This document shows, piece by piece, positions 13,614 through 63,785 of a stretch of 64,000 nucleotides of DNA. Numbering within the stretch: the stretch's first letter is position 1; each line of letters begins with the position of its first letter. The translations under genes and the position numbers were made by a program. Under the pieces are notes generated by a model, which ran no database searches, was not told the origin of the DNA, and saw nothing but the letters and a program-made list of their open reading frames with translations. The stretch is from Phymorhynchus buccinoides (Eukaryota > Mollusca > Gastropoda > Neogastropoda > Raphitomidae), in assembly GCA_017654935.2 (NCBI GenBank), contig CM065700.1, positions 50,807,927 to 50,871,926 of the forward strand, given 5' to 3'.

Positions 13614-13777
13614 ATGTTGGGAGAATTTTCATAGGAACCCAAGGGAACCGTTCAGATCCCACAGCCTACACGTTCAATGGAAATGCCATAGGTCTGGCCG
13701 GCCTATCCGGCTTATCCATCCCCTTCGCTGCTGTTGTCTTCCAGGCAGACGGCACTGAAGGCAGCAAAACCAGTGAG
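13614..13777 (+). CDS. TCTN2: TCTN2-like exon 2
   Basis: Acceptor TATTTTTACAG, donor GTGAG|GTAACA. It completes a split Asp codon and ends in phase 0 after 54 codons. Encodes a lumenal or extracellular segment with an N-glycosylation motif (NRS) and a hydrophobic stretch SIPFAAVVF. The last 32 bases and the donor are repeated about 21 times in the intron; read-through into copy 2 meets TGA within four codons, so the first donor must be used. Confidence 0.85.
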
Positions 13778-15688
13778 GTAACATGACACATTTATCTCCA
13801 GAATTAGTAAGACAGTTAATAGCATTGTCATTGTCAGACGGCACTGAAGGCAGCAAAACCAGTGAGGTAACATGACACATTTATCTCCAGAATTAGTAAG
13901 AAAGTTAATAGCATTGTCATTGTCAGACGGCACTGAAGGCAGCAAAACCAGTGAGGTAACATGACACATTTATCTCCAGAATTAGTAAGACAGTTAATAG
14001 CATTGTCATTGTCAGACGGCACTGAAGGCAGCAAAACCAATGTGGTAACATGACACATTTATCTCCAGAATTAGTAAGACAGTTAATAGCATTGTCATTG
14101 TCAGACGGCACTGAAGGCAGCAAAACCAGTGAGGTAACATGACACATTTATCTCCAGAATTAGTAAGACAGTTAATAGCAGTGTCATTGTCAGACGGCAC
14201 TGAAGGCAGCAAAACCAATGTGGTAACATGACACATTTATCTCCAGAATTAGTAAGACAGTTAATAGCATTGTCATTGTCAGACGGCACTGAAGGCAGCA
14301 AAACCAGTGAGGTAACATGACACATTTATCTCCAGAATTAGTAAGACAGTTAATAGCATTGTCATTGTCAGACGGCACTGAAGGCAGCAAAACCAGTGAG
14401 GTAACATGACACATTTATCTCCAGAATTAGTAAGACAGTTAATAGCATTGTCATTGTCAGACGGCACTGAAGGCAGCAAAACCAGTGAGGTAACATGACA
14501 CATTTATCTCCAGAATTAGTAAGACAGTTAATAGCATTGTCATTGTCAGACGGCACTGAAGGCAGCAAAACCAATGTGGTAACATGACACATTTATCTCC
14601 AGAATTAGTAAGACAGTTAATAGCATTGTCATTGTCAGACGGCACTGAAGGCAGCAAAACCAGTGAGGTAACATGACACATTTATCTCCAGAATTAGTAA
14701 GACAGTTAATAGCATTGTCATTGTCAGACGGCACTGAAGGCAGCAAAACCAGTGAGGTAACATGACACATTTATCTCCAGAATTAGTAAGACAGTTAATA
14801 GCAGTGTCATTGTCAGACGGCACTGAAGGCAGCAAAACCAATGTGGTAACATGACACATTTATCTCCAGAATTAGTAAGACAGTTAATAGCATTGTCATT
14901 GTCAGACGGCACTGAAGGCAGCAAAACCAATGTGGTAACATGACACATTTATCTCCAGAATTAGTAAGACAGTTAATAGCATTGTCATTGTCAGACGGCA
15001 CTGAAGGCAGCAAAACCAGTGAGGTAACATGACACATTTATCTCCAGAATTAGTAAGACAGTTAATAGCATTGTCATTGTCAGACGGCACTGAAGGCAGC
15101 AAAACCAGTGAGGTAACATGACACATTTATCTCCAGAATTAGTAAGACAGTTAATAGCATTGTCATTGTCAGACGGCACTGAAGGCAGCAAAACCAGTGA
15201 GGTAACATGACACATTTATCTCCAGAATTAGTAAGACAGTTAATAGCATTGTCATTGTCAGACGGCACTGAAGGCAGCAAAACCAATGTGGTAACATGAC
15301 ACATTTATCTCCAGAATTAGTAAGACAGTTAATAGCATTGTCATTGTCAGACGGCACTGAAGGCAGCAAAACCAGTGAGGTAACATGACACATTTATCTC
15401 CAGAATTAGTAAGACAGTTAATAGCATTGTCATTGTCAGACGGCACTGAAGGCAGCAAAACCAGTGAGGTAACATGACACATTTATCTCCAGAATTAGTA
15501 AGACAGTTAATAGCAGTGTCATTGTCAGACGGCACTGAAGGCAGCAAAACCAATGTGGTAACATGACACATTTATCTCCAGAATTAGTAAGACAGTTAAT
15601 AGCATTGTCATTGTCAGACGGCACTGAAGGCAGCAAAACCAATGTGGTAACATGACACATTTATCTCCAGAATTAGTAAGACAGTTAG
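13746..15688. repeat. 89-bp array copying exon 2 donor, about 22 units
   Basis: The unit starts AGACGGCACTGAAGGCAGC (exon 2 tail), includes the GTGAG|GTAACA donor and continues into intron. The first unit is the real exon end. Two unit types (CCAGTGAG and CCAATGTG before GTAACA) form a higher-order block of eight units (712 bp) repeated from 14305 and 15017. Confidence 0.95.
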
Positions 15689-16105
15689 TGGCAATGTGGT
15701 GAACTTGTGTAGCAGTTCAGGTGGTTTAATTTTGATGGCATGTGAAAATGATGTCCTGAAATTTATCAAACTCCCTAACATTACTTCTAAGATTAAAAAA
15801 AAATGGAATGAGTTTTATGAATGAATAATTAATGTACATGAGCAATTTTTTCTTTGCCAGCAAATGCTCTGTGTGTGTATGTGTACATGTGCGCATGTGT
15901 GTGTGTGCATCCTGTGTGTGTGTGCATATTTATGTGTTTTAGGGATGTGTACACATATGTGTGTCATTGAGTGTGTGTATGTGTGTTGTGGAGATGGGTG
16001 TCTGTGTGTATTTTCTGTCCTGAATTGATCAGATTTTGATCTATGTTACTGTCAGTAGCATCTGAAATATCTCTATTGTTATTATGATGCTGATGATATT
16101 CCCAG
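15689..16105 (+). other. Intron 2, unique and TG-rich part
   Basis: A short AT-rich stretch and imperfect TG repeats (15875-16010) before exon 3. Nothing gene-like. Confidence 0.6.
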
Positions 16106-16215
16106 ATTAATGTGAGCTGCACCAATGAGTTTGACGGAGCCACCGGCTACACTCAGCTTGACTTTGTCCCAACGAATCTCCCTGCTGCTGCCGCTGAAGG
16201 AAATGTTCCTTTTAG
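16106..16215 (+). CDS. TCTN2: TCTN2-like exon 3
   Basis: Acceptor ATTCCCAG, donor TTTTAG|GTGTGA, phases 0 and 2. Encodes a polar segment beginning INVSC (N-glycosylation motif and a cysteine) followed by FDGATGYTQLDFVPTNLP. This is one of the few exons without a flanking copy array. Confidence 0.8.
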
Positions 16216-17321
16216 GTGTGACACTTTTTAACATCATATTTTGTTTGCTCTTAGAAAAGAGAGAGAGAGAACACGAACACAATTTTTTATTAAGGGAAAA
16301 TAGATAAGCAACAAAGCTTCTTTTCACTATGCCCTCACAACAAAGGGAAACTAAAGAAAAAGAAAAATATTAATCAAACAGAAAGAAAAGCGAGAAAAGA
16401 AAAAGGAGAAATGTAATTATAAATAAATTCAAACACATAATGTAAATACAAAGCAAATGTGCAACAACATCTATACCTTTATCATAAGCACCAGCAAAAC
16501 ACATTCAGAAACACACTCTCATAGGTTAGTCTACTAGAGACGCTTCAGAATCGTTTTTATTGACATTGACAAGTACAGTCCTTATGTCAAGGGGGATTAC
16601 CAGCCGCATCAGGAATTCATGCAAAAGCGAAAATTAGTAAATTGTCTACTAGATAGAGAGAGAGTGGGGGGGGGGGGGGGGGGGGGATGGATGAGTTAAT
16701 TATGGAATGTGTATACAGTTTGTGTGTGTGTGAGATAATATGTGCCCATGCATATGTGTATGTGTGTTGTTACAATATTACAATCTTGGTTCTATGTATG
16801 CAGTCTAGTCATGGTATTGGCTTTAATAATGCAATGATTTCCTGTTCACAAGTCTATATTCCTTGTATTTTACACTATGGCCTTGTCTTTTCAAGTCATC
16901 TCTGTTTTCCAATTATTCTAGCTCCTCTTTTGTGGACAGTATGTTTTGTTGTTTTTATCTCATTTACAGCTTTTTAAACAACTGTCAATTGATAAGCGAT
17001 TTATTAATTGAGTTATGTAATTTTTTCACATTATTTTGCTGTCTACAGGTCTTATTGGATGCTTTTATTCTGCATTTTTATATATGATTTCACTGTTAAG
17101 TATAATTTGTATGTACCTGAATAATTTGTGTATTTTTCCCCAAATTATTTTGAGGTGCCTTTGTATCGCGCTATATAAACATTCATTGTTATTATCATTA
17201 TTATTAACTTTGACGGGACGGGGGGGGGCTTAATGGTGTGGCATTTTTGTGTTTCTTTTCTCCCTTTCACTCTCTCTGAGTCTCCTGCTCTCTCTCTCTC
17301 CTCTGTGTCTCTCTCTCTCTT
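16216..17321 (+). other. Intron 3, left part
   Basis: AT-rich unique sequence, a poly-G run (16666-16686), TG repeats and a retroelement 3' tail at 17150-17207 (GCGCTATATAAACATTCATT then ATT repeats). No gene supported. Confidence 0.6.
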
Positions 17322-17856
17322 CCACTATGTATTTCTTTCTCTCTCCTGTCATTCCATGTTTGTGGCCAGGTTGAAGCAAGCTGGGCGTGGGGCAGTAGTG
17401 CAGTGCTATGGCACACCCATAGACTCTCTCTTCCACTATGTATTTCTTTCTCTCTCCTGTCATTCCATGTTTGTGGCCAGGTTGAAGCAAGCTGGGCGTG
17501 GGGCAGTAGTGCGGTGCTATGGCACACCCATAGACTCTCTCTTCCACTATGTATTTCTTTCTCTCTCATGTCATTCCATGTTTGTGGCCAGGTTGAAGCA
17601 AGCTGGGCGTGGGGCAGTAGTGCGGTGCTATGGCACACCCATAGACTCTCTCTTCCACTATGTATTTCTTTCTCTCTCCTGTCATTCCATGTTTGTGGCC
17701 AGGTTGAGGCAAGCTGGGCGTGGGGCAGTAGTGCGGTGCTATGGCACACCCATAGACTCTCTCTTCCACTATGTATTTCTTTCTCTCTCATGTCATTCCG
17801 TGTTTGTGGCCAGCTTGAGGCAAGCTGGGCGTGGGGCAGTAGTGCGGTGCTATGGC
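17322..17856. repeat. 111-bp array copying exon 4 acceptor, 5 units
   Basis: Each unit holds a CT-rich tract, the acceptor TTTGTGGCCAG and the first 42 or so bases of exon 4, then CACACCCATAGACTC. The last unit is the true exon start. The period is 37 codons and the gene frame stays open through all five units. Confidence 0.93.
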
Positions 17857-17948
17857 AGCTCAGACCCCAGTCTGCAGTGCCCTGCAACCAACAACCAGAG
17901 CATCCCGCAGCCACAGTTCTGCCCTGACACCTCTGTGTCTGACCCTGT
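17814..17948 (+). CDS. TCTN2: TCTN2-like exon 4
   Basis: Acceptor GTTTGTGGCCAG, donor CCTGT|GTAAGA, phase 2 at both ends. Encodes VVRCYGSSDPSLQCPATNN and more, with three cysteines and an N-glycosylation motif (NQS). Four upstream acceptor copies could lengthen this exon in frame by 37 residues each; I chose the last because it alone leads without repeat sequence into the unique part. Confidence 0.75.
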
Positions 17949-22891: not shown

Positions 22892-23002
22892 CACCATTAC
22901 ACTGACTCCATCCCCTGTGGCCAGTGTCTGCCAGCGTGTCATAGTGCCTCCACGATTTACCTCTGCTCTCACTGTGACTGGCACCTTCACTGTACACCTC
23001 AG
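22892..23002 (+). CDS. TCTN2: TCTN2-like exon 5
   Basis: Acceptor TTGATTCTGTTTCAG, donor CACCTCAG|GTAATG, phase 2 in and out. Encodes TITLTPSPVASVCQRVIVPP then RFTSALTVTGTF, a beta-strand-like segment with one cysteine. The exon tail plus donor is copied about twelve more times downstream; the last copy has the stronger donor GTAAGA but its frame has a stop, so the first copy is the real one. Confidence 0.82.
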
Positions 23003-23108
23003 GTAATGTCTGTCTGTCTGTCTGTCTGTCTGCCAGCATGTCATAGTGCCTCCACGATTTACCTCTGCTCTCACTGTGACTGGCACCTTCACTGTACACC
23101 TCAGGTAA

Positions 23109-23141
<33 letters not shown>

Positions 23142-23218
23142 GCCAGCATGTCATAGTGCCTCCACGATTTACCTCTGCTCTCACTGTGACTGGCACCTTC
23201 ACTGTGCACCTCAGGTAA

Positions 23219-23251
<33 letters not shown>

Positions 23252-23324
23252 GCGTGTCATAGTGCCTCCACGATTTACCTCTGCTCTCACTGTGACTGGC
23301 ACCTTCACTGTACACCTCAGGTAA

Positions 23325-23357
<33 letters not shown>

Positions 23358-24147
23358 GCCAGCATGTCATAGTGCCTCCGCGATTTACCTCTGCTCTCAC
23401 TGTGACTGGCACCTTCACTGTACACCTCAGGTAATGTCTGTCTGTCTGTCTGTCTGTCTGCCAGCATGTCATAGTGCCTCCGCGATTTACCTCTGCTCTC
23501 ACTGTGACTGGCACCTTCACTGTACACCTCAGGTAATGTCTGTCTGTCTGTCTGTCTGTCTGTCTGCCAGCGTGTCATAGTGCCTCCACGATTTACTGTA
23601 GCTCTCACTGTGACTGACACTTTCACTGTACACCTCAGGTAATGTCTGTCTGTCTGTCTGTCTGTGTGTCATAGTGCCTCCACGATTTACCTCCGCTCTC
23701 ACTGCAACAGGCACATTCTCTGTACACCTCAGGTAATGTCTGTAGGTCTGCGTGTCAGTATGTCTCCCTGATTCACTGTAGCTCCCACTGCAACAGGCAC
23801 CTTCATTGTACACCTCTATTAATGTCTGTTTGTCTGCCTGTCTGTCTGTCTGCATGTCAGTATGTCTCCCTGATTCACTGTACACCTCAGGTAATGTCTG
23901 TCTGTCTGTCTGCATGTCAGTATGTCTCCCTGATTCACTGCAGCTCCCACTACAACAGGCACCTTCACTGTACACCTCAGGTAATCTCTGTCTGTCAGTA
24001 TGTCTCCCTGATTCACTGTAGCTCCCACTGCAACAAGCACCTTCACTGTACACCTCAGGTAATCTCTGTCTGTCTGTGTGTCAGTATGTCTCCCTGATTC
24101 ACTGTAGCTCCCACTGCAACAAGCACCTTCACTGTACACCTCAGGTA
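22925..24147. repeat. Exon 5 quasi-exon array, about 13 units
   Basis: Units of 80-112 bp pair a TCTG run ending TGCCAG (looks like a polypyrimidine tract with 3' splice site) with the last 68 bases of exon 5 and CACCTCAG|GTAATG. The TCTG run length varies, and the later units are more diverged. Confidence 0.93.
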
Positions 24148-24317
24148 AGAAAGCCATGATGAGCATGGGATCTAATTGCCGTGATCTAATTAATTGTCCT
24201 GTGCAGTTTGCTGCTTTTGTGACATGTCAAAAGTCACATCATTAGTGTAAGAAATCACCCCAACAACACCCATTTTGATTAAATCAAATGTGTGTGTGTG
24301 TGTGTTGCTTATTGCAG

Positions 24318-24412
24318 TGAGGCAGTGAGAGAGCAGAGTGTTGAGGTGACGTGTGACCAGGTAGACCCCAGCACCTTGCACTACTGTCAGGGAGGTTCTT
24401 GCTGCACGCCCA
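24318..24412 (+). CDS. TCTN2: TCTN2-like exon 6
   Basis: Acceptor TGCTTATTGCAG, donor GCCCA|GTGAGT, phases 2 and 1. Encodes SVEVTCDQVDPSTLHYCQGG followed by SCC, four cysteines in a short span, typical of the disulphide-rich lumenal part of tectonics. Confidence 0.83.
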
Positions 24413-24836
24413 GTGAGTACACTGTCTTCAACAGTTTTCTCATCATATAATAATACTCGTTTCTAGACTAGAACTAGTAGAAGACAGAGAAGCATTACGC
24501 CCAGTGAGTACACTGTCTTCACCAGTTTTCTCATGATATAATAATACTCGTTTCTAGACCAGAAGACAGAGAAGCATGACGTCCAGTGGGTACACTGTCT
24601 TCACCAGTTTTCTCAAATACTCGTTTCTAGACCAGAAGGCAGAGAAGCGTGACACCCAGTGGGTGAACACTGTCTTCACCAAGGATTGCGGACAATGGAT
24701 TTAAATTCCATGTATTCGTTTCCTCCCAGACCAGAAGTAAAGAGAAGCAGTGACACCCAGTGGGTGAACCCACTATCTTTTGACGTGAAGGATTGCGGAC
24801 AATGGATTTAAATTCCATGTATTTCGGTGTTCCTCC
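24413..24836. repeat. Degenerate copies of the exon 6 donor
   Basis: Four diverged blocks each repeat a GCCCAGTGAGTACACTGTCT-like stretch (for example CCCAGTGGGTGAACACTG), with shared TCGTTTCTAGACCAGAAG. The donor weakens to GTGGGT in the distal copies. Confidence 0.75.
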
Positions 24837-34894: not shown

Positions 34895-35425
34895 AGGCCT
34901 AGCCTCTTACAGACAGTAAAAATGATGAATAATGGTGATATTTATGTGTGTCGCAGATTCCAGCTCAGAAGGCCTAGCCTCTTACAGACAGTAAAAATGA
35001 TGAATAATGGTGATATTTATGTGTGTCGCAGATTCCAGCTCAGAAGGCCTAGCCTCTTACAGACAGTAAAAATGATGAATAATGGTGATATTTATGTGTG
35101 TCGCAGATTCCAGCTCAGAAGGCCTAGCCTCTTACAGACAGTAAAAATGATGAATAATGGTGATATTTATGTGTGTCGCAGATTCCAGCTCAGAAGGCCT
35201 AGCCTCTTACAGACAGTAAAATTGATGAATAATGGTGATATTTATGTGTGTCGCAGATTCCAGCTCAGAAGGCCTAGCCTCTTACAGACAGTACAAATGA
35301 TGAATAATGGTGATATTTATGTGTGTCGCAGATTCCAGCTCAGAAGGCCTAGCCTCTTACAGACAGTACAAATGATGAATAATGGTGATATTTATGTGTG
35401 TCGCAGATTCCAGCTCAGAAGGCCT
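34895..35425. repeat. 75-bp array copying exon 9 acceptor, 7 units
   Basis: Each unit holds TTTATGTGTGTCGCAG|ATTC and CAGCTCAGAAGGCCT, the 3' splice site plus first 15-18 bases of exon 9. In the gene frame an upstream acceptor meets TAA within the unit, so only the last acceptor gives an open exon. Confidence 0.95.
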
Positions 35426-35495
35426 GTTGCAGTCAGTGACACCAGAGTTACACATGGAGCCCCAGTACCTGTCTGTGTACAACACCTCCTTCCAG
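35407..35495 (+). CDS. TCTN2: TCTN2-like exon 9
   Basis: Acceptor GTGTGTCGCAG, donor CTTCCAG|GTCAGT, phases 1 and 0. Encodes SSSEGLLQSVTPELHMEPQY then LSVYNTSFQ, with glycosylation motif NTS. Flanked by copy arrays on both sides: seven acceptor copies upstream and about 60 donor copies downstream. Confidence 0.83.
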
Positions 35496-36505
35496 GTCAG
35501 TCCTCCTTCCAGGTCAGTCCTCCTTCCAGGTCAGTTCTCCTTCCAGGTCAGTCCTCCTTCTAGGTCAGTTCTCCTTCCAGGTCAGTCCTCCTTCCAGGTC
35601 AGTCCTCCTTCCAGGTCAGTCCTTCCAGGTCAGTCCTCCTTCCAGGTCAGTTCTCCTTCTAGGTCAGTCCTCCTTCCAGGTCAGTTCTCCTTCTAGGTGA
35701 GTTCTCCTTCTAGGTCAGTTCTCCTTCCAGGTCAGTTCTCCCTCCAGGTCAGTTCTCCTTCCAGGTCAGTTCTCCTGTGTCAGTTCTCCTTCTAGGTCAG
35801 TCCTCCTTCCAGGTCAGTTCTCCTTCCAGGTCAGTTCTCCTTCCTGGTCAGTTCTCCTTCCTGGTCAGTTCTCCTTCCAGGTCAGTTCTCCTCGGTCAGT
35901 TCTCCTTCCAGGTCAGTTCTCCTTCCAGGTCAGTTCTCCTTCCAGGTCAGTTCTCCTTCCAGGTCAGTTCTCCTTCTAGGTCAGTTCTCCTTCTGTGTCA
36001 GTTCTCCTTCCAGGTCAGTTCTCCTTCCAGGTCAGGTCTCCTTCCAGGTCAGTTCTCCTGTGTCAGTTCTCCTTCTAGGTCAGTTCTCCTTCCAGGTCAG
36101 TTCTCCTTCTAGGTCAGTTCTCCTTCCAGGTCAGTTCTCCTTCCAGGTCAGTTCTCCTTCCAGGTCAGTTCTCCTTCCTGGTCAGTTCTCCTTCCAGGTC
36201 AGTTCTCCTGTGGTCAGTTCTCCTTCCAGGTCAGTTCTCCTTCCAGGTCAGTTCTCCTTCCAGGTCAGTTCTCCTTCCAGGTCAGCTCTCCTTCCAGGTC
36301 AGTTCTCCTAGGTCAGTTCTCCTTCCAGGTCAGTTCTCCTTCCAGGTCAGTTCTCCTTCCAGGTCAGTTCTCCTTCCAGGTCAGTTCTCCTTCCAGGTCA
36401 GTTCTCCTTCCAGGTCAGTCCTCCTTCCAGGTCAGTCCTCCTTCCAGGTCAGTCCTCCTTCCAGGTCAGTTCTCCTTCCAGGTCAGTTCTCCTTCCAGGT
36501 CAGTG
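35488..36505. repeat. 17-bp GT...AG array at exon 9 donor, about 60 units
   Basis: The unit GTCAGTTCTCCTTCCAG carries a donor at its start and a polypyrimidine tract with AG at its end. Unit 1 is the last bases of exon 9 plus its donor. Shortened units (CTGTGTCAG, CTCGGTCAG) and C/T variants are scattered through it. Confidence 0.95.
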
Positions 36506-37990: not shown

Positions 37991-38114
37991 TATTCAACTG
38001 AAATTTTATGCAATGCAAAACATCTGTAGTGAGCAAGTTGTCCTAGGCATTAATTGGTAAAAAAAATCTAAAGAATGATGATAGATTTTAAATTGTGATT
38101 TGTCCTGTCCCTGT

Positions 38115-38430
38115 GTGCAGTCATTGCTGTGCAGACTTTGATGTTCAGTGCCTGGCGGTGGTAGTCAGCTCTTTACTTGTAGAATGACGATGTCTAGATT
38201 TACCATGATCATTTCCTTTCATGATCATGTCCCTGTGTGCAGTCGTTGCTGTGCAGACTTTGATGTTCAGTGCCTGGCGGTGGTAGTCAGCTCTTTACTT
38301 GTAGAATGACGATGTCTAGATTTACCATGATCATTTCCTTTCATGATCATGTCCCTGTGTGCAGTCGTTGCTGTGCGTGGACAGAGACTGATTTTGAGGT
38401 TCACTGTCAAGCCTCAGTGGTCAGCACTTT
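38115..38430 (+). pseudogene. Three decayed copies of exon 10 start
   Basis: Each copy repeats CTGTGTGCAGTCRTTGCTGT (acceptor and start of exon 10) followed by diverged matches to GACTTTGATGTTCAGTG and CAGTGGTCAGCACTTT. The first two are 122 bp apart and share GATTTACCATGATCATTTCC; the third retains more of the exon. All carry frame-breaking changes. Confidence 0.7.
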
Positions 38431-38759: not shown

Positions 38760-38946
38760 TCGTTGCTATATGTGGACACAGACATTAACTTTGAAGTCCA
38801 GTGTCAGGCCTCAGTGGTCAGCACTCTAGATGAAGCCCTGGACAGAACCTTGCCTGCCAACATCGACTGTTCCTTTATTTCTGCCAATGGTACATCCACA
38901 CCCTCGGCCACCACCACACCTATACCCACCACTGCCTCCTCCACAC
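38760..38946 (+). CDS. TCTN2: TCTN2-like exon 10: start of Thr/Pro-rich linker
   Basis: Acceptor TTTTCTGTGTGCAG, donor CCACAC|GTTAGT, phases 0 and 1. The first 42 codons (SLLYVDTDINFEVQCQASVV ... CSFISANGT) look like folded lumenal sequence; the last 20 are Ser/Thr/Pro ([17 protein letters not shown]), mucin-like and probably O-glycosylated. Donor GTTAGT is unusual but in phase with exon 11. Confidence 0.8.
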
Positions 38947-40690
38947 GTTAGTATCTTGGTGTTTCATTGTCAGTGCCTATATCTCTGCCAATGGTACATC
39001 CACACCCTCGGCCACCACCACACCTATACCCACCACTGCCTCCTCCACACGTTAGTATCTTGGTGTTTGATTGTCAGTACCTATATCTCTGCCAATGGTA
39101 CATCCACACCCTCGGCCACCACCACACCTATGCCCACCACTGCCTCCTCCACACGTTAGTATCTTGGTGTTTGATTTGTCAGTGCCTTTATCTCTGCCAA
39201 TGGTACATCCACACCCTCAGCCACCACCACACCTATGCCCACCACTGCCTCCTCCACACGTTAGTATCTTGGTGTTTGATTGTCAGTGCCTTTATCTCTG
39301 CCAATGGTACATCCACACCCTCAGCCACCACCACACCTATACCCACCACTGCCTCCTCCACACGTTAGTATCTTGGTGTTTGATTGTCAGTGCCTTTATC
39401 TCTGCCAATGGTACATCCACACCCTCAGCCACCACCACACCTATGCCCACCACTGCCTCCTCCACACGTTAGTATCTTGGTGTTTGATTGTCAGTGCCTT
39501 TATCTCTGCCAATGGTACATCCACACCCTCAGCCACCACCACACCTATGCCCACCACTGCCTCCTCCACACGTTAGTATCTTGGTGTTTGATTGTCAGTG
39601 CCTTTATCTCTGCCAATGGTACATCCACACCCTCAGCCACCACCACACCTATACCCACCACTGCCTCCTCCACACGTTAGTATCTTGGTGTTTGATTGTC
39701 AGTGCCTATATCTCTGCCAATGGTACATCCACACCCTCAGCCACCACACCTATGCCCACCACTGCCTCCTCCACACGTTAGTATCTTGGTGTTTGATTGT
39801 CAGTGCCTTTATCTCTGCCAATGGTACATCCACACCCTCAGCCACCACACCTATGCCCACCACTGCCTCCTCCACACGTTAGTATCTTGGTGTTTGATTG
39901 TCAGTGCCTTTATCTCTGCCAATGGTACATCCACACCCTCAGCCACCACCACACCTATGCCCACCACTGCCTCCTCCACACGTTAGTATCTTGGTGTTTG
40001 ATTGTCAGTGCCTTTATCTCTGCCAATGGTACATCCACACCCTCAGCCACCACCACACCTATGCCCACCACTGCCTCCTCCACACGTTAGTATCTTGGTG
40101 TTTGATTGTCAGTGCCTTTATCTCTGCCAATGGTACATCCACACCCTCAGCCACCACCACACCTATGCCCACCACTGCCTCCTCCACACGTTAGTATCTT
40201 GGTGGTTGATTGTCAGTGCCTATATCTCTGCCAATGGTACATCCACACCTATGCCCACCACTGCCTCCTCCACACGTTAGTATCTTGGTGTTTCATTGTC
40301 AGTGCCTTTATGTCTGCCAATGGTACATCCACACCCTCAGCCACCACCACTCACCCACCACTGCCTCCTCCACACATTAGTATCTTGGTGTTTGATTGTC
40401 AGTGCCTTTATCTCTGCCAATGGTACATCCACACCCTTGGCCACCACCACACCTATGCCCACCACTGCCTCCTCCACACGTTAGTATCTTGGTGTTTGAT
40501 TTGTCAGTGCCTTTATTTCTGCCAATGGTACATCCACACCCTCAGCCACCACCACACCTATGCCCACCACTGCCTCCTCAACACGTTAGTATCTTGGTGT
40601 TTGATTTGTCAGTGCCTTTATCTCTGCCAATGGTACATCCACACCCTCAGCCACCACACCTATGCCCACCACTGCCACCTCCACACGTTA
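38868..40690. repeat. 104-bp array copying exon 10 end, 18 units
   Basis: Unit: about 77 bases of exon 10 Thr/Pro tail, CCACAC|GTTAGT, and CTTGGTGTTTGATTGTCAG, which resembles a weak acceptor. Unit variants (TCGGCC/TCAGCC, ATACCC/ATGCCC, one 3-bp ACC loss) are mixed. The quasi-exon of 77 bases would break frame if spliced in. Confidence 0.95.
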
Positions 40691-40696
40691 GTATCT

Positions 40697-41392
40697 TGGT
40701 ATCTGTGCTTGGTCCTGTCTTGTTTACTTTGTATACATTACCTCTTGCCAATGTCATCGACCAACACAACATGAAACATCACTTCTATGCAGATGACTCA
40801 CAACTCCAAAATAGTACAACCCCTGAAGATCTAGATTCCATTCTTTCAGAAAGTAACAACTGCTATATTGATATTCAAAATTGGATGGTTCAAAATTCAA
40901 TTAAATGGTGAAAAAACCGAAGCAATGCTTGTAGGAACAAAAAGCAAACTAGCCTCTGTTTCCATAGAGTCAATCCAACTGGGTAGCAATATCATTCCCC
41001 TCTCAGACTCTGTCAAAAACTTAGGCGTCACTTTGGACAATACCCTTTCCATGCAGATTTTCCTGACTCAGACCTGTCAGTCCTGCTACTATCAAATTCA
41101 TCGCATTGGCTATATTCGTAAATATATCTCAGATGAAGCCACAGCAAAACTTGTTACTTCCCTCATCCTATCTCGTCTTGACTACTGCAATGCTCTCCTT
41201 TCTGGCCTATCAGTCTCTTCTCTATCTTGTCTCCAGCGTATTCAAAACACAGCTGCCCGTCTTGTCCTTAGGAAGAAAAAGTTTGATCACGTTAGCCCTC
41301 TTCTCCGTTCTTTGCACTGGCTTCCTGTCGCAGACAGAATTAAGTATAAATTAAACACCCTTTGCTATAAATCTACAGTGAAACCCGTTTAG
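40697..41392 (+). pseudogene. LINE reverse transcriptase remnant
   Basis: Starts inside the RT domain at [18 protein letters not shown], then [10 protein letters not shown] (YADD catalytic box), a frameshift near 40905, NLGVTLDNTLSM, then SRLDYCNALLSGLSVSSLSC, LQRIQNTAARLV and LHWLPVADRIKYKLNTLCYK. This order is typical of L2/CR1/Jockey-type non-LTR elements. It is cut at both ends and abuts the exon 10 array. Confidence 0.88.
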
Positions 41393-47539: not shown

Positions 47540-47725
47540 GAGAATATATTATGGCCCATTATGTTATGAAGAAACTACACACATTCCTAGTGCATGCAAG
47601 TTATGTGTATGATGTCAGATTAAAGTTATGAGAAGCAGTCTTTGAAGAACAGAGGCAATCCCATAAATCTTTAATTTCTGAAGAGTAGGCTTTTTGTGCG
47701 AGCAGAAAAAAATTGTGCTGCTGTC

Positions 47726-47909
47726 TAACATTGAGCACATAGCTTCAGTGAAACATGTGAACTGCTGTGTTGTGATTTACAGCGGATTTGACCACGTTTA
47801 CACCTGACGTCAACACTAACATTGAGCACATAGCTTCAGTGAAACATGTGAACTGCTGTGTTGTGATTTACAGCGGATTTGACCACGTTTACACCTGACG
47901 CCAATGCTA
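47726..47909. repeat. 91-bp duplication of exon 11 acceptor, 2 units
   Basis: CTAACATTGAGCACATAGCT through TGTTGTGATTTACAG and the first 36 bases of exon 11 occur twice. The first acceptor (exon start 47783) would lead into the second unit rather than the rest of the exon. Confidence 0.9.
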
Positions 47910-48010: not shown

Positions 48011-48840
48011 GTGAGTGTTTGTCTGTCTGTCCGTCTGTCTGTCTCACAAACATATACCCCCCATAGACCCCACATCTTCTTAGCCTGTAGATGATTCCTT
48101 TACCATTTCTGTGAGTGTCCATCTGTCTGTCTGTCCATCTGTCTGTTCATCTGTCCGTCTGTCTGTCCATCTGTCTGTCCATCTGTCTGTCTGTCTGTCT
48201 GTCCATCTGTCTGTCCATCTGTCTGTCTGTCTTTCTCACACACATATACCCCCATAGACCCCACATCTTCCTGTTTAGCTGTGGATGATTCCTTTACCAT
48301 TTCTGTGAGTGTCCATCTGTCTGTCTGTCTGTCTGTAATAATAATAATAATACATAGTATTTACATAGCGCCTTTCTTTAGAATTAAACTCAAGGCGCTC
48401 ACATTCACTGATTCACACGCAATTGGGCTAGCATACACATTCATTCAATCATCATCTAATTAATGTGAAAAGTTAGAGAGAGAAAGCTCTTTGAAACAAG
48501 TGAGTTTTCTTTCGGGTTTTGAAAGCGGAAAGTGCTGAATTGTGACGGAGGTGAACAGGCAAGGAGTTCCAGACAGTGGGGGCGCTAAAACTGCGTTGTC
48601 CAAAAGACTTTAAATTCACTTTAGGAACTTTCTACAGTTTGGCATGGGAAGATCAGAGTGAGCGAGAAGGAGTGTAAGTGTGGAGAGCACTGGAGAGGTA
48701 GGATGGTAGGGTCTGTTCAAAGTGGCGGAATGCAAGGACTGTCTGTCCGTCTGTCTCACACACATAGACCCCACATCTTCTTAGCTGTGAGTGTCCATCT
48801 GTCTGTCCGTCTGTCTGTCTCTCTGTCTGTCTCCTAACTC
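47996..48840. repeat. Exon 11 donor copies with TCTG tracts
   Basis: Two further copies of GATTCCTTTACCATTTCTGT followed by GAGTGTCCATCTG and long TCTG/TCCG runs. A retroelement (48338-48745) has split the array. Confidence 0.85.
48338..48745 (-). mobile_element. Non-coding retroelement with (ATT)n tail
   Basis: Reads, on the minus strand, toward AAAGGCGCTATGTAAATACT and a TTATTATT tail, the common end of tRNA-core SINEs and some LINEs. It sits inside the TCTG array. No coding capacity. Confidence 0.55.
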
Positions 48841-48984: not shown

Positions 48985-49180
48985 GAGGACACCAAGTACT
49001 CCGTTGTACGGACGCAACGTGAGCTGTCAGCCATAGCTCCTGTTCAGGAAGTCGTGGTGACCACGTGTTGCTCCGTGATTAAGGACGCCGACGCTGCCAG
49101 TAGTGCCTACACCAACCTCAAAGTGGCCTCTGTGGCTGTGGCCGGTCTGGTGCCCACACTGAACAGGACAGGGGGTGCCA
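48985..49180 (+). CDS. TCTN2: TCTN2-like exon 12
   Basis: Acceptor TTGATCAAACAG, donor GTGCCA|GTGAGT, phases 0 and 1. Encodes EDTKYSVVRTQRELSAIAPV, then VVVTTCCSVIKDADAASSAY and ASVAVAGLVPTLNRT, with a CC pair and a glycosylation motif (NRT). Its tail and donor are recopied about ten times in the following intron. Confidence 0.83.
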
Positions 49181-50450
49181 GTGAGTATAAGGAGAAAGAG
49201 AGAGGGGGAGGGAAAGGGGTGGAGGGAGAGGGGGGGAGGTGTGTGTCAAAGTGGCCTCTGTGGCTGTGGCCAGTCTGGTGCCCACACTGAACAGGACGGG
49301 GGGGGAGCCAGTGTGTATCAGGAGAGAGAGAGAGGGGGGAGAGAGAGGGGGGGGAGGGAGAGGGGGGGAGGTGTGTGTCAAAGTGGCCTCTGTGGCTGTG
49401 GCCGGTCTGGTGCCCACACTGAACAGGACGGGGGGAGCCAGTGTGTATCAGGAGAGAGAGAGAGAGGGGGAGAGAGAGAGAGAGAGGGGGGAGAGAGAGA
49501 GAGAGAGGGAGAGAGAGAGGGGGGAGAGAGAGGGAGGGAGGAGAGGGGGGGGGGAGAGAGAGGGGGGGGGGAGAGAGAGGGGGGGGGGAGAGAGGGGGGG
49601 GGGGGTGTGTGTCAAAGTGGCCTCTGTGGCCAGTCTGGTGCCCACACTGAACAGGACGGGGTGAGCCAGTGAGTGTCAGGAGAGAGGGGGGGGAGAGAGA
49701 GAGGGGGGGAGGAGGAGAGAGAGAGGGGGGGGGAGAGAGAGAGGGGGGGGGGTGTGTGTCAAAGTGGCCTCTGTGGCCAGTCTGGTGCCCACACTGAACA
49801 GGACGGGGTGAGCCAGTGAGTGTCAGGAGAGAGGGGGGGAGAGAGAGAGGGGGGGGGGAGAGAGAGAGAGGGGGGGGGGAGAGAGAGAGAGGGGGGGGGG
49901 GAGAGAGGGGGGGGGGGAGGTGTGTGTCAAAGTGGCCTCTGTGGCCAGTCTGGTGCCCACACTGAACAGGACGGGGTGAGCCAGTCAGTATCAGGAGAGA
50001 GGGAGAGAGAGGGGGGGGGAGAGAGAGAGGGGGGGGAGAGAGAAGGGGGGGAGGTGTGTGTCAAATTGGCCTCTGTGGCCGTGGCCGGTCTGGTGCCCAA
50101 ACTGAACAGGACGAGGGGAGCCATTGAGTGTCAGGAGAGAGGGAGAGAGAGAGGGGGGGGGGGGGAGAGAGAGGGGGGGAGAGGTGTGTGTCAAAGTGGC
50201 CTCTGTGGCCAGTCTGGTGCTCACACTGAACAGGGCGGGGGGAGCCAGTCAGTATCAGGAGAGAGAGTGGGGGGAGGGAGAGGGGGGGGGGAAGGAGAGG
50301 TGGGGAGGTGTGTGTCAAAGTGGCCTCTGAGGCTGTGGCCAGTCTGGTGCCCACACTGAGCAGGACGGGGGGAGCCAGTGTGCATCAGGAGAGAGAGAGG
50401 GGGGAGGGAGAGGGGGGGGAGGTGTGTGTCAAAGTGGACTGAACAACACT
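49181..50450. repeat. Exon 12 donor copies with G-rich purine tracts
   Basis: About ten units of 100-220 bp: GTCAAAGTGGCCTCTGTGGC ... ACACTGAACAGGACGGGG (exon 12 end), a GCCAGTGTGT or GCCAGTGAGT donor, and GAGAG/GGGGGG tracts of very variable length. Two unit classes differ by presence of GCTGTGGCC. Confidence 0.93.
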
Positions 50451-50640
50451 GGGGGGTGCGGGTGCGTGCTTGTGTTGATAATAATAATAAAAATGACAAT
50501 GATGATGATGACAATCATTTGCAGTCAGTGGCACTCCCAGTTTGCCTACAGAGAATGATTGTGATGGTGATGATGGTGATGGTGATGGGGGTGATGATGA
50601 TGATGATGATGATGACGATGACAATGACAATGATTTGCAG

Positions 50641-50756: not shown

Positions 50757-51089
50757 GTGAGTGCACTTTTCATATTACACATCATTGATTTTAAAATGTG
50801 TTGGATGATTATCTGTGCCTATTTGTGATCCTTTGTGGTCCTGTGCGGAGAAGGAAGGTGGCACAAGGTTATGGCAATCGCTTGCCAATTTGATTCGTGA
50901 GTGACTGGGGTTCCAATCCCAGCCTCGCTCTTTGTTTCTACCCCCCCCCCCCTCCCTCGCCCATACACATCCCCTTCCCTGAAAAGAAGGTTGACACTGC
51001 GCTGCTGCAGCTTCAGTGCCGTCTCCCAATGGGACAGAGACGACTGACTGTGACTAGACACTACTACTGCACCGTACCACACCACAAAG

Positions 51090-51466
51090 TAAGGAGTTAT
51101 ACTGTGTGTGTGTCTGTTCAGGAGTGTACAGAGGCCCAGACACAGACGACTGACTGTGACTAGACACTACTACTGCACTGTACCACACCCTCAGAGTAAG
51201 GAGTTATACTGTGTGTGTGTCTGTTCAGGAGTGTACAGAGGCCCAGACACAGACGACTAACTGTGACTAGACACTACTACTGCACCGTACCACACCACAA
51301 AGTAAGGAGTTATACTGTGTGTGTGTCTGTTCAGGAGTGCACAGAGGCCCAGACACAGACGACTGACTGTGACTAGACACTACTACTGCACCGTACCACA
51401 CCCTCAGAGTAAGGAGTTATACTGTGTGTGTGTCTGTTCAGGAGTGCACAGAGGCCCAGACACAGA
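51090..51466. repeat. About 118-bp array copying exon 14 acceptor, 4 units
   Basis: Units contain GTGTGTGTCTGTTCAG|GAGT, the first 30 bases of exon 14 (CACAGAGGCCCAGACACAGA) and a tail GACTGTGACTAGACACTAC. The last acceptor opens the real exon; upstream ones meet an in-frame TGA or TAA after CAGACGAC. Confidence 0.93.
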
Positions 51467-51665
51467 CGTTCAGCGGCTGTATCCCGGGATTATTGGGCGG
51501 CCAGGATCCCGACACAGACCTTAGGCGGTGCGGGTCGACCCAATTCCCCAAGGAGGACTGGTTCCCGCTGATGTGCGTGGAGTTTGAGTCCAACGCTCTG
51601 CTGGGCCGCTTCTACACGGGGGAGAACACAGTGACCTCTGTCACTGCTGTTGAATACACTTACAG
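51442..51665 (+). CDS. TCTN2: TCTN2-like exon 14
   Basis: Acceptor TGTCTGTTCAG, donor CTTACAG|GTAATA, phases 0 and 2. Continues the tectonic core: ECTEAQTQTFSGCIPGLLGG, CGSTQFPKEDWFPLMCVEFE, then LLGRFYTG. The D-W-F-P-x-x-C-V and L-G-x-F-Y motifs are shared with tectonic family members. Both junctions are tandemly copied. Confidence 0.9.
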
Positions 51666-52925
51666 GTAATACAGACCTCTGTCACTGCTGTTGAATACAC
51701 TTACAGGTAATACAGACCTCTGTCACTGCTGTTGAATACACTTACAGGTAATACAGACCTCTGTCACTGCTGTTGAATACATTTACAGGTAATACAGACC
51801 TCTGGTGTGGACATTACATAATACACTTACAGGTAATACAGACCTCTGTCACTGCTGTTGAATACACTTACAGGTAATACAGACCTCTGTCACTGCTGTT
51901 GAATACACTTACAGGTAATACAGACCTCTGTCACTGCTGTTGAATACACTTACAGGTAATACAGACCTCTGTCACTGCTGTTGAATACACTTACAGGTAA
52001 TACAGACCTATGTCACTGCTGTTGAATACACTTACAGGTAATACAGACCTATGTCACTGCTGTTGAATACACTTACAGGTAATACAGACCTCTGTCACTG
52101 CTGTTGAATACACTTACAGGTAATACAGACCTATGTCACTGCTGTTGAATACACTTACAGGTAATACAGACCTCTGTCACTGCTGTTGAATACACTTACA
52201 GGTAATACAGACCTCTGTCACTGCTGTTGAATACACTTACAGGTAATACAGACCTCTGTCACTGCTGTTGAATACACTTACAGGTAATACAGACCTATGT
52301 CACTGCTGTTGAATACACTTACAGGTAATACAGACCTCTGGTGTGGACATTACATAATACACTGACAGGTAATACAGACCTCTGGTGTGGACATTACGGA
52401 ATACACTTACAGGTAATACAGACCTCTGTCACTGCTGTGGACATTAAGGAATACACTTACAGGTAATACAGACCTCTGTCACTGTTGTGGACATTAAGGA
52501 ATACACTTACAGGTAATACAGACCTCTGTCACTGCTGTGGACATTACGGAATACACTTACAGGTAATACAGACCTCTCACTGCTGTGGACATTAAGGAAT
52601 ACACTTACAGGTAATACAGACCTCTGTCACTGCTGTGGACATTAAGGAATACACTTACAGGTAATACAGACCTCTGGTGTGGACATTACGGAATACACTT
52701 GCAGGTAATACAGACCTCTGGTGTGGACATTACGGAATACACTTACAGGTAATACAGACCTCTGGTGTGGACATTACGGAATACACTGACAGGTAATACA
52801 GACCTCTGTCACTGTTGTGGACATTAAGGAATACACTGACAGGTAATACAGACCTCTGGTGTGGACAGTCAGCTGACAGAGCACAGTGAATACACTGACA
52901 GGCAATACAGACATTGGTTGTGGCC
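51626..52925. repeat. 41-bp array copying exon 14 donor, about 30 units
   Basis: Unit: TCTGTCACTGCTGTTGAATA then CACTTACAG|GTAATACAGACC. In the right half a variant replaces the middle with GGTGTGGACATTACGGAATA. As GTAATACAG...CTTACAG, each unit starts GT and ends AG. Confidence 0.95.
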
Positions 52926-54372: not shown

Positions 54373-55205
54373 GGAAGCAGAGCCTCGTTTCTTCGACCTC
54401 AACTCCATCCGTTACAAAGACGGCAGCTCCATCCTGACTGTGTCGGCCTCCAGTGAAGCTGGCACCCTGTCCCTCCCCCAGCCCTCCTCCTCAGGACCCT
54501 GCCTGCCCTCCTCCCCCGTCCTCTTCCTCAGAGAGACACAGTCCACGTGTACTGGGACCCTCACCCCAGAAACGTGTGCTGATCTGACGACGTTTAGTTC
54601 GCGTGTCTATGTCCAGGCCAGCTCTCTCTTCAACCCTGCCTGCCCCAGATCGTTCAGCGTCCGTGCCACTGGTGACTCCAATGACGGAAGTCTGGTTGAT
54701 GCCAAGGTCAATTACCATTGCGCCACCAATGTCGTTGATTACATCAAAGATTTAACCCAAACTTTTCCCGATGTTGTGACGCCAACGACAGTCTCTAACT
54801 TCCCATCCAATTTGCAAGACCTCAACTGTTCCAATCCGTGCGGCCAAGATTCGTCCTGCCTGGATTATAACGATAATTTGGGTGATTCTACTGACCCCCC
54901 CCTTCCCCCGCGCTGTTCTTACGACAACAGTTTTGAACTGCCCCCCACCCCCACCTACAACCCGTTGACCCAGAGCTGCAACAACGTGGTTTTAGAGGTC
55001 CAATACCGATTGTCCTGGGCCAACCAAACCATCACGGGGCTCACTGCCAATGTGCTTTTAGGCAGCGTGTCACTGGCTTCAGCAAACAGTAGCGTCCTCA
55101 GCCAGAAGTTTGGAGTCAGCTTTGTCCACCACTATGACGGTCCCAGCAACCAGACCGACAACTATCAGAATGTCACCACCCCCTACCAGCGATCAGGAAG
55201 ACCAG
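54373..55205 (+). CDS. TCTN2: TCTN2-like exon 15: large core exon
   Basis: 833 bp, acceptor ACTGGTTTTCAG, donor AGACCAG|GTAAAT, phases 2 and 1. Encodes RFFDLNSIRYKDGSSILTVS, LSLPQPSSSGPCLPSSPVLF, then cysteine-containing segments, VVLEVQYRLSWANQTITGL and SSVLSQKFGVSFVHHYDGPS. The order matches the tectonic core after the DWFP motif (transport-like beta-sandwich region; function of each part unknown). Several glycosylation motifs. Unusually long for this gene; it may represent fused ancestral exons. Reading frame fully open. Confidence 0.93.
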
Positions 55206-55655
55206 GTAAATGAACAACTATCAGAATGTCACCACCCCCTACCAGCAATCAGGAAGACCAGGTAAATGAACAACTATCAGAATGTCACCACCCCTACCAG
55301 CAATCAGGAAGACCAGGTAAATGAACAACTATCAGAATGTCACCACCCCCTACCAGCAATCAGGAAGACCAGGTAAATGAACAACTATCAGAATGTCACC
55401 ACCCCTACCAGCAATCAGGAAGACCAGGTAAATGAACAACTATCAGAATGTCACCACCCCCTACCAGCGATCAGGAAGACCAGGTAAATGAACAACTATC
55501 AGAATGTCACCACCCCCTACCAGCGATCAGGAAGACCAGGTAAATGAACAACTATCAGAATGTCACCACCCCTACCAGCAATCAGGAAGACCAGGTAAAT
55601 GGACAACTATCAGAATGTCACCACCCCTACCAGCGATCGGGAAGACCAGGTAAAT
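55160..55655. repeat. 56-bp array copying exon 15 donor, 9 units
   Basis: Unit: CAACTATCAGAATGTCACCA, CCCCTACCAGCRATCAGGAA, GACCAG|GTAAATGAA. The first unit is exon end; 55-bp variants lack one C. Read-through meets TGA immediately after the first donor. Confidence 0.95.
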
Positions 55656-60600: not shown

Positions 60601-60672
60601 ATAGGGGCAGTTGTAGTGTTACAACGTGGGACAGACTAACCTCACAATACAACAGCACAGTCCCCATGGTAG
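57610..60672. repeat. 74-bp tandem array, about 41 units
   Basis: Unit GTGTGGGACAGACTAACCTC, ACAATACAACAGCACAGTCC, CCATGGTAGATATAGGGGCA, GTTGTAGTGTTACA. Variants include AATCC/AATAC, an 81-bp form with an extra CATAGTC and a few shortened units. Confidence 0.96.
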
Positions 60673-62339: not shown

Positions 62340-62752
62340 GTGTGTTGCTTTTGTTTTTTCATTATACTTTTCACACACATTGAAGGCATTCATATTAGTT
62401 TCAATGTGTGTTGCTTTTGTTTTTTCATTATACTTTTCACACACATTGAAGGCGTTCATATTAGTTTCAATGTGTGTGCTTTCATCAGTGTTGGCCTTTT
62501 CACACACATTGAAGGCGTTCATATTAGTTTCAATGTGTGTGCTTTCATCAGTGTTGGCCTTTTCACACACATTGAAGGCGTTCATATTAGTTTCAATGTG
62601 TGTGCTTTCATCAGTGTTGGCCTTTTCACACACATTGAAGGCATTCATATTAGTTTCAATGTGTGTGCTTTCATCAGTGTTGGCCTTTTCACACACATTG
62701 AAGGCGTTCATATTAGTTTCAATGTGTGTGTGCTTTCATCAGTGTTGGCCTT
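62340..62752. repeat. 61-64 bp tandem array, 7 units
   Basis: Units contain TTTTCACACACATTGAAGGC and TTCATATTAGTTTCAATGTG; the first two carry GCTTTTGTTTTTTCATTATA, the rest CTTTCATCAGTGTTGGCC. Confidence 0.93.
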
Positions 62753-62779
62753 TTCTCATTATTCTGCATTCTGTTTCAG

Positions 62780-62897
62780 GCGGTGACGGGTTGTGTGCCA
62801 ACGCCAGACGCCGGTTCCTGACTTTCGGGGAAGACGTGCAATCCAGCTGCCTGCTGCGACTGACGATAGACGACATCAACGACTGTGACGCCCTCAG
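62780..62897 (+). CDS. TCTN2: TCTN2-like exon 17, last in window
   Basis: Acceptor ATTCTGTTTCAG, donor CCCTCAG|GTCAGT, phases 1 and 2. Encodes GGDGLCANARRRFLTFGEDV then QSSCLLRLTIDDINDCDALR. The G-x-G-L-C...FGE-x-x-x-S-x-C-L-L pattern matches the tectonic carboxy core. The exon tail and donor are copied about 15 times downstream. The next exon lies outside. Confidence 0.9.
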
Positions 62898-63785
62898 GTC
62901 AGTGTCTGTGTGCTGCGACTGACGATAGACGACATCAACGACTGTGACGCCCTCAGGTCAGTGTCTGCATGCTGCGACTGACGATAGACGACATCAACGA
63001 CTGTGACGCCCTCAGGTCAGTGTCCGCGACTGACGATAGACATCATCGACTGCCACGCCCTCAGGTCAGTGTATGCATGCTGCGACTGACGATAGACGAC
63101 ATCAACGACTGTGACGCCCTCAGGTCAGTGTCTGTGTGCTGCGACTGACGATAGACGACATCAACGACTGTGACGCCCTCAGGTCAGTGTCTGTGTGCTG
63201 CGACTGACGATAGACGACATCAACGACTGTGACGCCCTCAGGTCAGTGTCTGTGTGCTGCGACTGACGATAGACGACATCAACGACTGTGACGCCCTCAG
63301 GTCAGTGTCTGTGTGCTGCGACTGACGATAGACGACATCAACGACTGTGACGCCCTCAGGTCAGTGTCTGTGTGCTGCGACTGACGATAGACGACATCAA
63401 CGACTGTGACGCCCTCAGGTCAGTGTCTGTGTGCTGCGACTGACGATAGACGACATCAACGACTGTGACGCCCTCAGGTCAGTGTCTGTGTGCTGCGACT
63501 GACGATAGACGACATCAACGACTGTGACGCCCTCAGGTCAGTGTCTGTGTGCTGCGACTGACGATAGACGACATCAACGACTGTGACGCCCTCAGGTCAG
63601 TGTCTGTGTGCTGCGACTGACGATAGACGACATCAACGACTGTGACGCCCTCAGGTCAGTGTCTGTGTGCTGCGACTGACGATAGACGACATCAACGACT
63701 GTGACACCCTCAGGTCAGTGTCTGTGTGCTGCGACTGATGATAGATAACATCAACGACTGTGACGCCCTCAGGTCAGTGTCTGTG
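62840..63785. repeat. 59-bp array copying exon 17 donor, about 16 units
   Basis: Unit: GTCAGTGTCTGTGTGCTGCG, ACTGACGATAGACGACATCA, ACGACTGTGACGCCCTCAG. The first unit is the exon end. Early units are more variable (one shortened), later ones nearly identical. Each permuted unit starts GT and ends AG. Confidence 0.95.

Follow-up and report, generated by a model that had tools for sequence, protein, structure and literature searches.

The closest described systems are the amphioxus 'mirages', in which exon-intron boundaries of the Adh3, globin, troponin C and PGBD5 genes have been duplicated in tandem in a minisatellite-like fashion (PMC3087553, PMC3902484). They have been offered as a route to new introns, and the accessible parts of these reports cover few genes and measure neither a rate nor a positional bias. 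In this study, we analysed tandem arrays at the splice junctions of a gastropod, Phymorhynchus buccinoides, starting from 64,000 nucleotides of contig CM065700.1 (the window). Structurally, the arrays that we found are mirages as described in amphioxus; what is new is their lineage, their density and the measurement of an exon-edge bias. The snail arrays have a unit that spans the boundary (at 28 of 79 modelled junctions), occur at both boundaries and carry splice signals within their units. As far as the accessible amphioxus text describes them, mirages likewise consist of tandem units of about 10-160 bp across 5' and 3' exon edges, with splice signals copied in many units, and are proposed as a source of new introns. 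Mirages are further characterised by undisturbed regular splicing and by lengths that are unstable between haplotypes. The two cases differ in that ours is a mollusc rather than a cephalochordate and has many affected junctions per gene rather than few reported genes. We measured the exon-edge excess against null models, a measure that does not appear in the accessible mirage reports, whereas those reports include RT-PCR and instability evidence and the snail arrays are known from the sequence of one assembly. A search of open-licence literature found no report of molluscan exon-edge minisatellites, which is a weak negative.

Two further systems bear on these arrays. In the model of intron gain by tandem genomic duplication at AGGT, as outlined in the accessible text of a review (PMC3443670), duplicated exon sequence gives rise to a new intron, which is bounded by duplicated AGGT and lies at a position where relatives have none. 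The snail arrays resemble it in that splice-site sequence is copied, and donor units starting after AG could in principle give GT...AG stretches; unlike that model, they lie at the edges of introns already required by the gene model. Human segmental-duplication paralogues can be altered by internal tandem repeats with an average unit of 30 bp x 4, half of them in coding sequence (PMC2812944). There too minisatellites lengthen exons or introns and can activate cryptic splice sites, and the accessible part of that report describes no exon-edge bias.

Junction arrays in a tectonic gene

The gene in the window was identified as tectonic (DUF1619) by matches to PF07773 (E 9.7e-18) and PF25752 (E 1.3e-13), and its closest relatives are the proteins of caenogastropod snails (Babylonia 51%, Nucella 49%, Littorina 46%). 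Splice-aware alignment to a snail tectonic protein placed exons 2-17 in the window with GT-AG introns and found no location there for exon 1. The exon numbering follows the preliminary description, and all junctions in the analysis are predicted rather than observed in RNA. Two donors were set by hand. The exon 17 donor was moved from 62903 to 62898 (CAG/GTCAGT) and lies inside its array either way; the exon 10 donor was placed at the first copy, 38946, where the alignment had jumped to a later copy at 39363, both being inside the array. The affected junctions are as follows, TRF marking the arrays that this program reported and scores marking diverged copies.

13746..15687, + strand: exon 2 donor array, 89 bp x 21.8 (TRF); GT intact in 22/22 junction copies; exon 2 at 13614-13777
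17313..17857, + strand: exon 4 acceptor array, 111 bp x 4.9 (TRF); AG intact in 5/5 junction copies; exon 4 at 17814-17948
22925..24148, + strand: exon 5 donor array, unit about 102 bp (TRF); GT intact in 11/12 junction copies; exon 5 at 22892-23002
24406..24681, + strand: exon 6 donor array, unit about 82-91 bp, 3 junction copies (TRF); exon 6 at 24318-24412
34895..35425, + strand: exon 9 acceptor array, 75 bp x 7.1 (TRF); AG intact in 7/7 junction copies; exon 9 at 35407-35495
35486..36504, + strand: exon 9 donor array, 17 bp x 60.9 (TRF); GT intact in 57/57 junction copies found
38106..38388, + strand: diverged copies of the start of exon 10 with its acceptor, lying upstream of the true acceptor; score 24 against a shuffle maximum of 11.5
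38872..40700, + strand: exon 10 donor array, 104 bp unit (TRF); GT intact in 17/18 junction copies; exon 10 from 38760, hand-set donor 38946
47725..47904, + strand: exon 11 acceptor array, 91 bp x 2.0, 98% match (TRF); exon 11 at 47874-48010
48280..48329, + strand: diverged copy of the exon 11 donor; score 22.5 against a shuffle maximum of 12.5
49118..50437, + strand: exon 12 donor array, unit about 132 bp with G+A tracts (TRF); GT intact in 8/9 junction copies; exon 12 at 48985-49180
50501..50541, + strand: second copy of the exon 13 acceptor; score 31 against a shuffle maximum of 12.0; exon 13 at 50641-50756
51033..51468, + strand: exon 14 acceptor array, 107 bp x 4.1 (TRF); AG intact in 4/4 junction copies; exon 14 at 51442-51665
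51633..52867, + strand: exon 14 donor array, 41 bp unit (TRF); GT intact in 28/28 junction copies
55158..55655, + strand: exon 15 donor array, 56 bp x 9.0 (TRF); GT intact in 9/9 junction copies; exon 15 at 54373-55205
62852..63788, + strand: exon 17 donor array, 59 bp unit; exon 17 from 62780, hand-set donor 62898

The exon 11 acceptor array is a young two-copy case. The exon 10 donor array carries higher-order periods of 208 and 312 bp over its 104 bp unit, and TRF reported an array of 122 bp x 2.2 at 38106-38376, in the region of the diverged exon 10 acceptor copies. At exon 17, the GT of the alignment donor is present in 15/15 junction copies found. Only 7 exon bases lie inside the exon 6 donor array.

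By strict overlap, 13 of the 32 tectonic junctions lie inside tandem arrays, namely nine of 16 donors (exons 2, 5, 6, 9, 10, 12, 14, 15 and 17) and four of 16 acceptors (exons 4, 9, 11 and 14). For the remaining 19, we compared the alignment score of intron-side copies with the maximum of 60 shuffles per junction. Three, the exon 10 acceptor, exon 11 donor and exon 13 acceptor, had clear diverged copies that include the junction (shuffle maxima 11.5-12.5); the exon 12 acceptor, exon 15 acceptor and exon 16 donor scored slightly above their shuffle maxima, with matches that leave the junction out. The results reproduced exactly the 16 of 32 junctions listed in the preliminary description, and its units and copy numbers agree with TRF (for the exon 10 donor, 104 bp and 18 junction copies).

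The same description held that such overlap would rarely arise by chance, since exons make up about 5% of the span. That share cannot serve as a null, given that 65.5% of the 13-64 kb interval consists of arrays. About two of every three random bases fall in an array, and 13/32 is therefore below the raw expectation; the excess becomes visible only after collapsing. A per-base null in raw coordinates (about 21/32 expected for tectonic, 21.3/83 for myosin exons) overstates chance and was rejected because arrays expand after seeding. We therefore reduced each array to one unit before random placement. Against this collapsed-frame null, the 13 tectonic junctions compared with 3.8 expected, a count reached in 0/5000 simulations and in 0/10000 in a repeat, and the claim of overlap beyond chance stands on this basis.

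Exon-edge arrays in other genes

The pattern had been described as running throughout one gene, which is too narrow, as it recurs in myosin-VIIa-like genes and in myosin and kinesin exons. Under the collapsed-frame null, 11 of 29 junctions were spanned in the myosin-VIIa-like gene C29 (3.3 expected, 1/10000 simulations) and 4 of 18 in its paralogue C2 (0.7 expected, 28/10000). Spurious leading and filler exons of both alignments were removed before counting. Full models were made for three genes only, tectonic having been chosen in the preliminary description and C29 after its arrays were seen; pooled, they gave 28 spanned junctions (16 donors and 12 acceptors) against 7.8 expected, with a simulation maximum of 21 in 10000. 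The pooled excess survived six array filters, a ban on exon-interior seeds and circular shifts (0 of 2000-3000 each). Comparing the two myosin paralogues by eye, we found no homologous junction modelled in both that carries an array in both.

Exons picked by Pfam score extended the comparison, and the excess was again found. For myosin, 13/83 edges lay in arrays against 6.1 expected (P 0.005), in 42 of 68 matches (30 with loci and 12 fetched, mostly in listing order) that include C29 and C2 exons, so that the sets are not independent. Three pairs of these loci (L015/L018, L016/L019 and L023/L024) overlap or represent recent copies, the predicted donor edges of L012, L013, L051 and L056 score poorly, and L049 has no donor. 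For kinesin, 7/40 edges lay in arrays, in 20 of 127 matches hand-picked from the upper list with stop-free frames and omitting look-alike copies and a few others; the distance profile of these exons started with 8/40 at the junction and had fallen to 0-6% at distances of 100 bp or more. Among the random pieces, L046 and L064 were all N and several others partly N.

Possible origin of the excess

In the examined genes, exon edges carry tandem arrays roughly three times more frequently than neighbouring intron DNA does, and we lean, somewhat beyond an even chance, towards preferential duplication at the exon-intron border as the cause; such duplications would be tolerated because the exon-adjacent copy is predicted to stay spliceable. 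A duplication would be born with one breakpoint in the exon and the other in the intron, and the array would then grow by unequal exchange or slippage. Exon definition would select the outermost splice sites, so that the remaining copies would be removed with the intron. As a first guess at the cause, breaks or template switching may be favoured at transcribed exon edges. The preliminary description had left a choice between mutational bias and tolerance at exon edges. The over-representation is real and a birth bias fits it better; tolerance alone is insufficient, because it could at most lift exon edges to the level of deep intron, which they exceed about threefold.

Next, the junction excess was compared across copy-number and percent-match classes, both of which are poor clocks if arrays are homogenised. 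With rising copy number the ratios were 4.1 (fewer than 3 copies, 0/4000), 3.0 and 3.9; by percent match they were 3.7 (at least 97% match, 2/4000), 3.6 and 3.6. Few-copy arrays were rejected as the most junction-biased class, because the ratio is flat across copy classes; 12/24 few-copy arrays were junctional against 7/24 of those with at least 8 copies, a difference that was not significant (p 0.24). Survival bias, in which births are uniform and edge-spanning arrays last longer since whole-array deletion would also take a needed splice site, is the less likely account, though one that deserves weight. By reasoning, such deletion is barred at junctions only, and arrays of at least 5 copies are at least as biased as others (12 junctions against 2.4 expected). 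Under survival the excess should rise with age, yet it is already about fourfold below 3 copies and grows with neither copies nor divergence; percent match is also alike in junctional and other arrays (91 vs 90.5, p 0.57). These results favour a birth bias over survival, without proof. The arrays of at least 5 copies lie mostly at donors (10 vs 2 at acceptors), a skew that a symmetric birth process does not account for.

The excess is restricted to about 75 bp from the junction, and donors and acceptors are both affected. In the three genes, array coverage was 35% at the junction and dropped to 8-14% at 75 bp and beyond (28/80 at the junction, 18/80 at 50 bp, 6/78 at 100 bp and 9-11/78 at 150-500 bp). 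Two dispersed-looking repeat families in the introns are in keeping with sequence turnover, in which younger transposon insertions dilute deep intron while older exon-flanking sequence has collected arrays for longer. We consider this improbable, since dilution would taper gradually, whereas the excess has disappeared by 75-100 bp and array density stays level between 150 and 500 bp; moreover, arrays near an exon that do not span its edge show no excess at 100 bp.

To assess the splice-site copies, we examined the dinucleotides at the copied junctions. GT or AG was kept in 259/262 junction copies, as would be expected if selection maintained the arrays for redundant splice sites or repeated exon ends. 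The splice dinucleotide was invariant in 17/20 arrays against 15.1 expected from neighbouring columns (P 0.20), no significant excess, and we hold such selection to be very improbable. The exon-adjacent copy is the modelled one in 28/28 arrays (2 hand-set), compatible with the homology model, and the tectonic model has no need of the inner GT...AG copies. Chance overlap or an assembly artefact in a repeat-rich genome can practically be set aside, for although raw overlap is expected where arrays fill so much of the gene span, the collapsed and circular-shift nulls never reach the observed pooled count, the pattern recurs in exons on many contigs, and the copies carry variants and higher-order periods.

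Other candidate features of the arrays were also considered. A preferred AG/GT breakpoint was rejected, the exon share of the unit being scattered from 0.09 to 1.0. GC content was rejected as the sole seeding driver, because non-junction units (0.432, 0.407 and 0.445) are at most slightly GC-richer than unique intron (0.424, 0.424 and 0.405). Strong donor motifs occurred in 10/76 non-junction arrays in sense and 2/76 in antisense orientation, and in 0/20 of those in tectonic. Four of the 10 sense motifs are myosin exon ends by eye, and the other six are unexplained or GT-rich. A best-candidate search that skipped very common words found the exon 2 array unit at no other locus, two units giving 11 matches, all within the array; judged by its sequence, this array does not appear to be an introner-like or transposable element, which would recur at many loci.

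Implications for exon edges and introns

A broader reading makes exon edges hotspots of tandem-duplication birth throughout the genome, where a border-tied mutational process places minisatellites on at least about 1/6 of junctions and provides material from which new splice sites and introns could form; we put this forward tentatively, as slightly more doubtful than an even bet. Arrays at about 1/6 to 1/2 of the examined junctions would provide many natural replicates within one genome. They have inflated the length of the tectonic gene (33.4 kb of 51 kb), and they pose a hazard for annotation, since copied exon tails may be taken for extra exons. RNA and a few re-sequenced individuals could show which copy is spliced, how often a copy turns into exon or intron, and whether new duplications do start at exon edges.

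The tectonic gene and its tandem arrays

The window occupies 50.81-50.87 Mb on a contig of 51.7 Mb; the genome totals 2.12 Gb. The draft exon translation matched two Pfam families, TCTN_DUF1619 (E 9.7e-18) and DUF1619_N (E 1.3e-13). The nearest proteins belong to Nucella (49%), Babylonia (51%), Littorina (46%), Batillaria (47%) and Pomacea (41%), which makes a caenogastropod the probable source. We modelled the gene by splice-aware dynamic programming, with the Babylonia protein as query and the window and the next 10 kb downstream as target. The model recovered exons 2 to 17, with all introns GT-AG, and the gene extended beyond the window end; the exon 10 and exon 17 donors were assigned by hand after alignment. 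Junctions in all genes are predicted, from homology and splice-site consensus.

Arrays (TRF, units of at least 10 bp) covered 58.6% of the whole window; between 13 and 64 kb, 40 arrays totalled 33.4 kb and the share was 65.5%. Exons 2-17 have 32 junctions, and 13 of these lay within an array. Among the remaining 19, local alignment revealed diverged junction-containing copies for three: the exon 10 acceptor, the exon 11 donor and the exon 13 acceptor. These 16 are exactly the junctions listed by eye in the preliminary description, which had judged them too many for chance because exons make up so little of the span. That proportion is the wrong yardstick; so is the raw array share, which would predict about 21/32. 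We collapsed each array to one unit, since an array is a single seeding event that later grew, and placed single units at random in the resulting 20.1 kb of gene. The expected number was 3.79 (sd 1.74), and 13 was reached in 0 of 5000 simulations. The excess thus stands, on this null and not on the original argument.

Further repeats were observed in the window. A sequence of about 60 bp (GGAAAAGGCAGGAGAATG...) is common to short tandem arrays in different introns, in both orientations; its 46-kb and 61-62-kb copies are 77-88% complementary. It looks like a dispersed repeat that is also arranged in tandem. Two arrays upstream of the tectonic gene have the core unit TGACAACCCTTGAAGCCAGGCTGC in common.

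Other features of the window
38264-38434: upstream diverged copy of the exon 10 start and acceptor, a candidate pseudo-exon (...TETDFEVHCQASVVSTL vs TDINFEVQCQASVVSTL in the true exon)
46075-46201, 61201-61383, 61850-62094: GGAAAAGGCAGGAGAATG-type arrays, both orientations
4079-5179, 34165-34677: GGAAAAGGCAGGAGAATG-type arrays, by eye
6165-6442: TGACAACCCTTGAAGCCAGGCTGC array, 35 bp x 8
8079-10111: TGACAACCCTTGAAGCCAGGCTGC array, 38 bp x 54
57613-60672: the window's longest array, 74 bp x 41 (higher-order period 222 bp), in intron 15 and off junctions
40835-41389: 185-aa open frame past the exon 10 donor array, resembling a reverse-transcriptase fragment by eye, with no Pfam match at E 0.01

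Junctional arrays in other genes

Two myosin-VIIa-like genes with alignment-based models, C29 and C2, had arrays spanning 11 of 29 junctions (null 3.3, 1/10000 simulations) and 4 of 18 (null 0.7, 28/10000), respectively. Pooled with the tectonic gene, 28/79 junctions were spanned against 7.8 expected. This excess survived unit, copy-number and identity filters, a ban on exon-interior seeds, and clustering-preserving circular shifts (0/2000-3000 each).

Exons were also taken from Pfam matches. The myosin-head set (42 of 68 matches used, across many contigs), some of whose exons belong to C29 and C2 and which is therefore not independent of them, had 13/83 junctions in arrays versus 6.07 expected (P 0.005). 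This count is probably an underestimate, because several arrays classed as other at these loci cover adjacent myosin exon ends by eye. Among the kinesin exons (20 of 127 matches, from the upper part of the list), 7/40 junctions were in arrays (5 acceptors, 2 donors). The phenomenon had been described for one gene; the tectonic excess is real, but its restriction to that gene is not, as myosin and kinesin exons have it too. The Pfam-picked sets, at about 1 junction in 6, give the fairer frequency, because the tectonic gene was picked in the preliminary description and C29 was chosen by us once arrays had been seen.

At one myosin exon locus (L054, 1787-2288, reverse complement), an array of 193 bp x 2.1 lies closely downstream of the exon. 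The array unit reproduces most of the exon plus the donor, with frameshifts by eye, and the exon copies are unreadable as coding in the present frame.

Collapsed coverage in the three modelled genes was 28/80 at the junction, 18/80 at 50 bp, 11/79 at 75 bp, 6/78 at 100 bp and 9-11/78 at 150 to 500 bp. The kinesin profile fell from 8/40 at the junction to 0-6% at 100 bp and beyond; the myosin Pfam profile gave 13/83 at the junction, 21/83 at 25 bp, 2/80 at 100 bp and 8/79 at 200 bp. Mean array coverage of random genomic pieces (n=13, readable sequence) was 2.8%. The array excess is bound to the exon-intron border.

Anatomy and origin of the junctional arrays

The 28 junctional arrays (16 donors, 12 acceptors) had units of 17 to 228 bp. 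Exon sequence made up 9% to 100% of the unit, indicating that there is no fixed breakpoint. Arrays of at least five copies were mainly at donors (10 vs 2). The exon-adjacent copy was the modelled one in 28/28 arrays, two of them hand-set. GT or AG was intact in 259/262 junction copies. This invariance was no higher than neighbouring columns predict (17/20 arrays vs 15.1 expected, P 0.20), so the inner splice sites show no sign of selection.

Junctional arrays might simply be longer-lived, but the excess should then rise with age, and no rise was seen. Observed/expected ratios were 4.1, 3.0 and 3.9 for arrays of <3, 3-8 and >=8 copies, and 3.7, 3.6 and 3.6 at matches of >=97%, 90-97% and <90%. 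The excess is therefore fully present among the youngest-looking arrays, copy number and percent match being imperfect age clocks. Percent match was alike in junctional and other arrays (91 vs 90.5, p 0.57). The raw contrast between few-copy arrays (12/24 junctional) and arrays of >=8 copies (7/24) was not significant (p 0.24). By eye, none of the homologous junctions modelled in both C29 and C2 was spanned in both; at one C2-spanned junction, the C29 homologue has a degenerate array 24 bp past the donor. Taken together, the flat ratios, the equal match and the paralogous junctions not spanned in common favour repeated, independent births at exon edges. A shared mobile element looks unlikely, judging by the exon 2 array, whose unit was found solely in that array.

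We do not assign these exon-edge arrays to intron gain by tandem duplication, as PMC3443670 presents it. According to two papers (PMC3087553, PMC3902484), "mirages" occur in the amphioxus Adh3, globin, troponin C and PGBD5 genes, with splicing undisturbed and length unstable. The snail arrays, known here from sequence, have the same structure and show the sequence-level features of these mirages.
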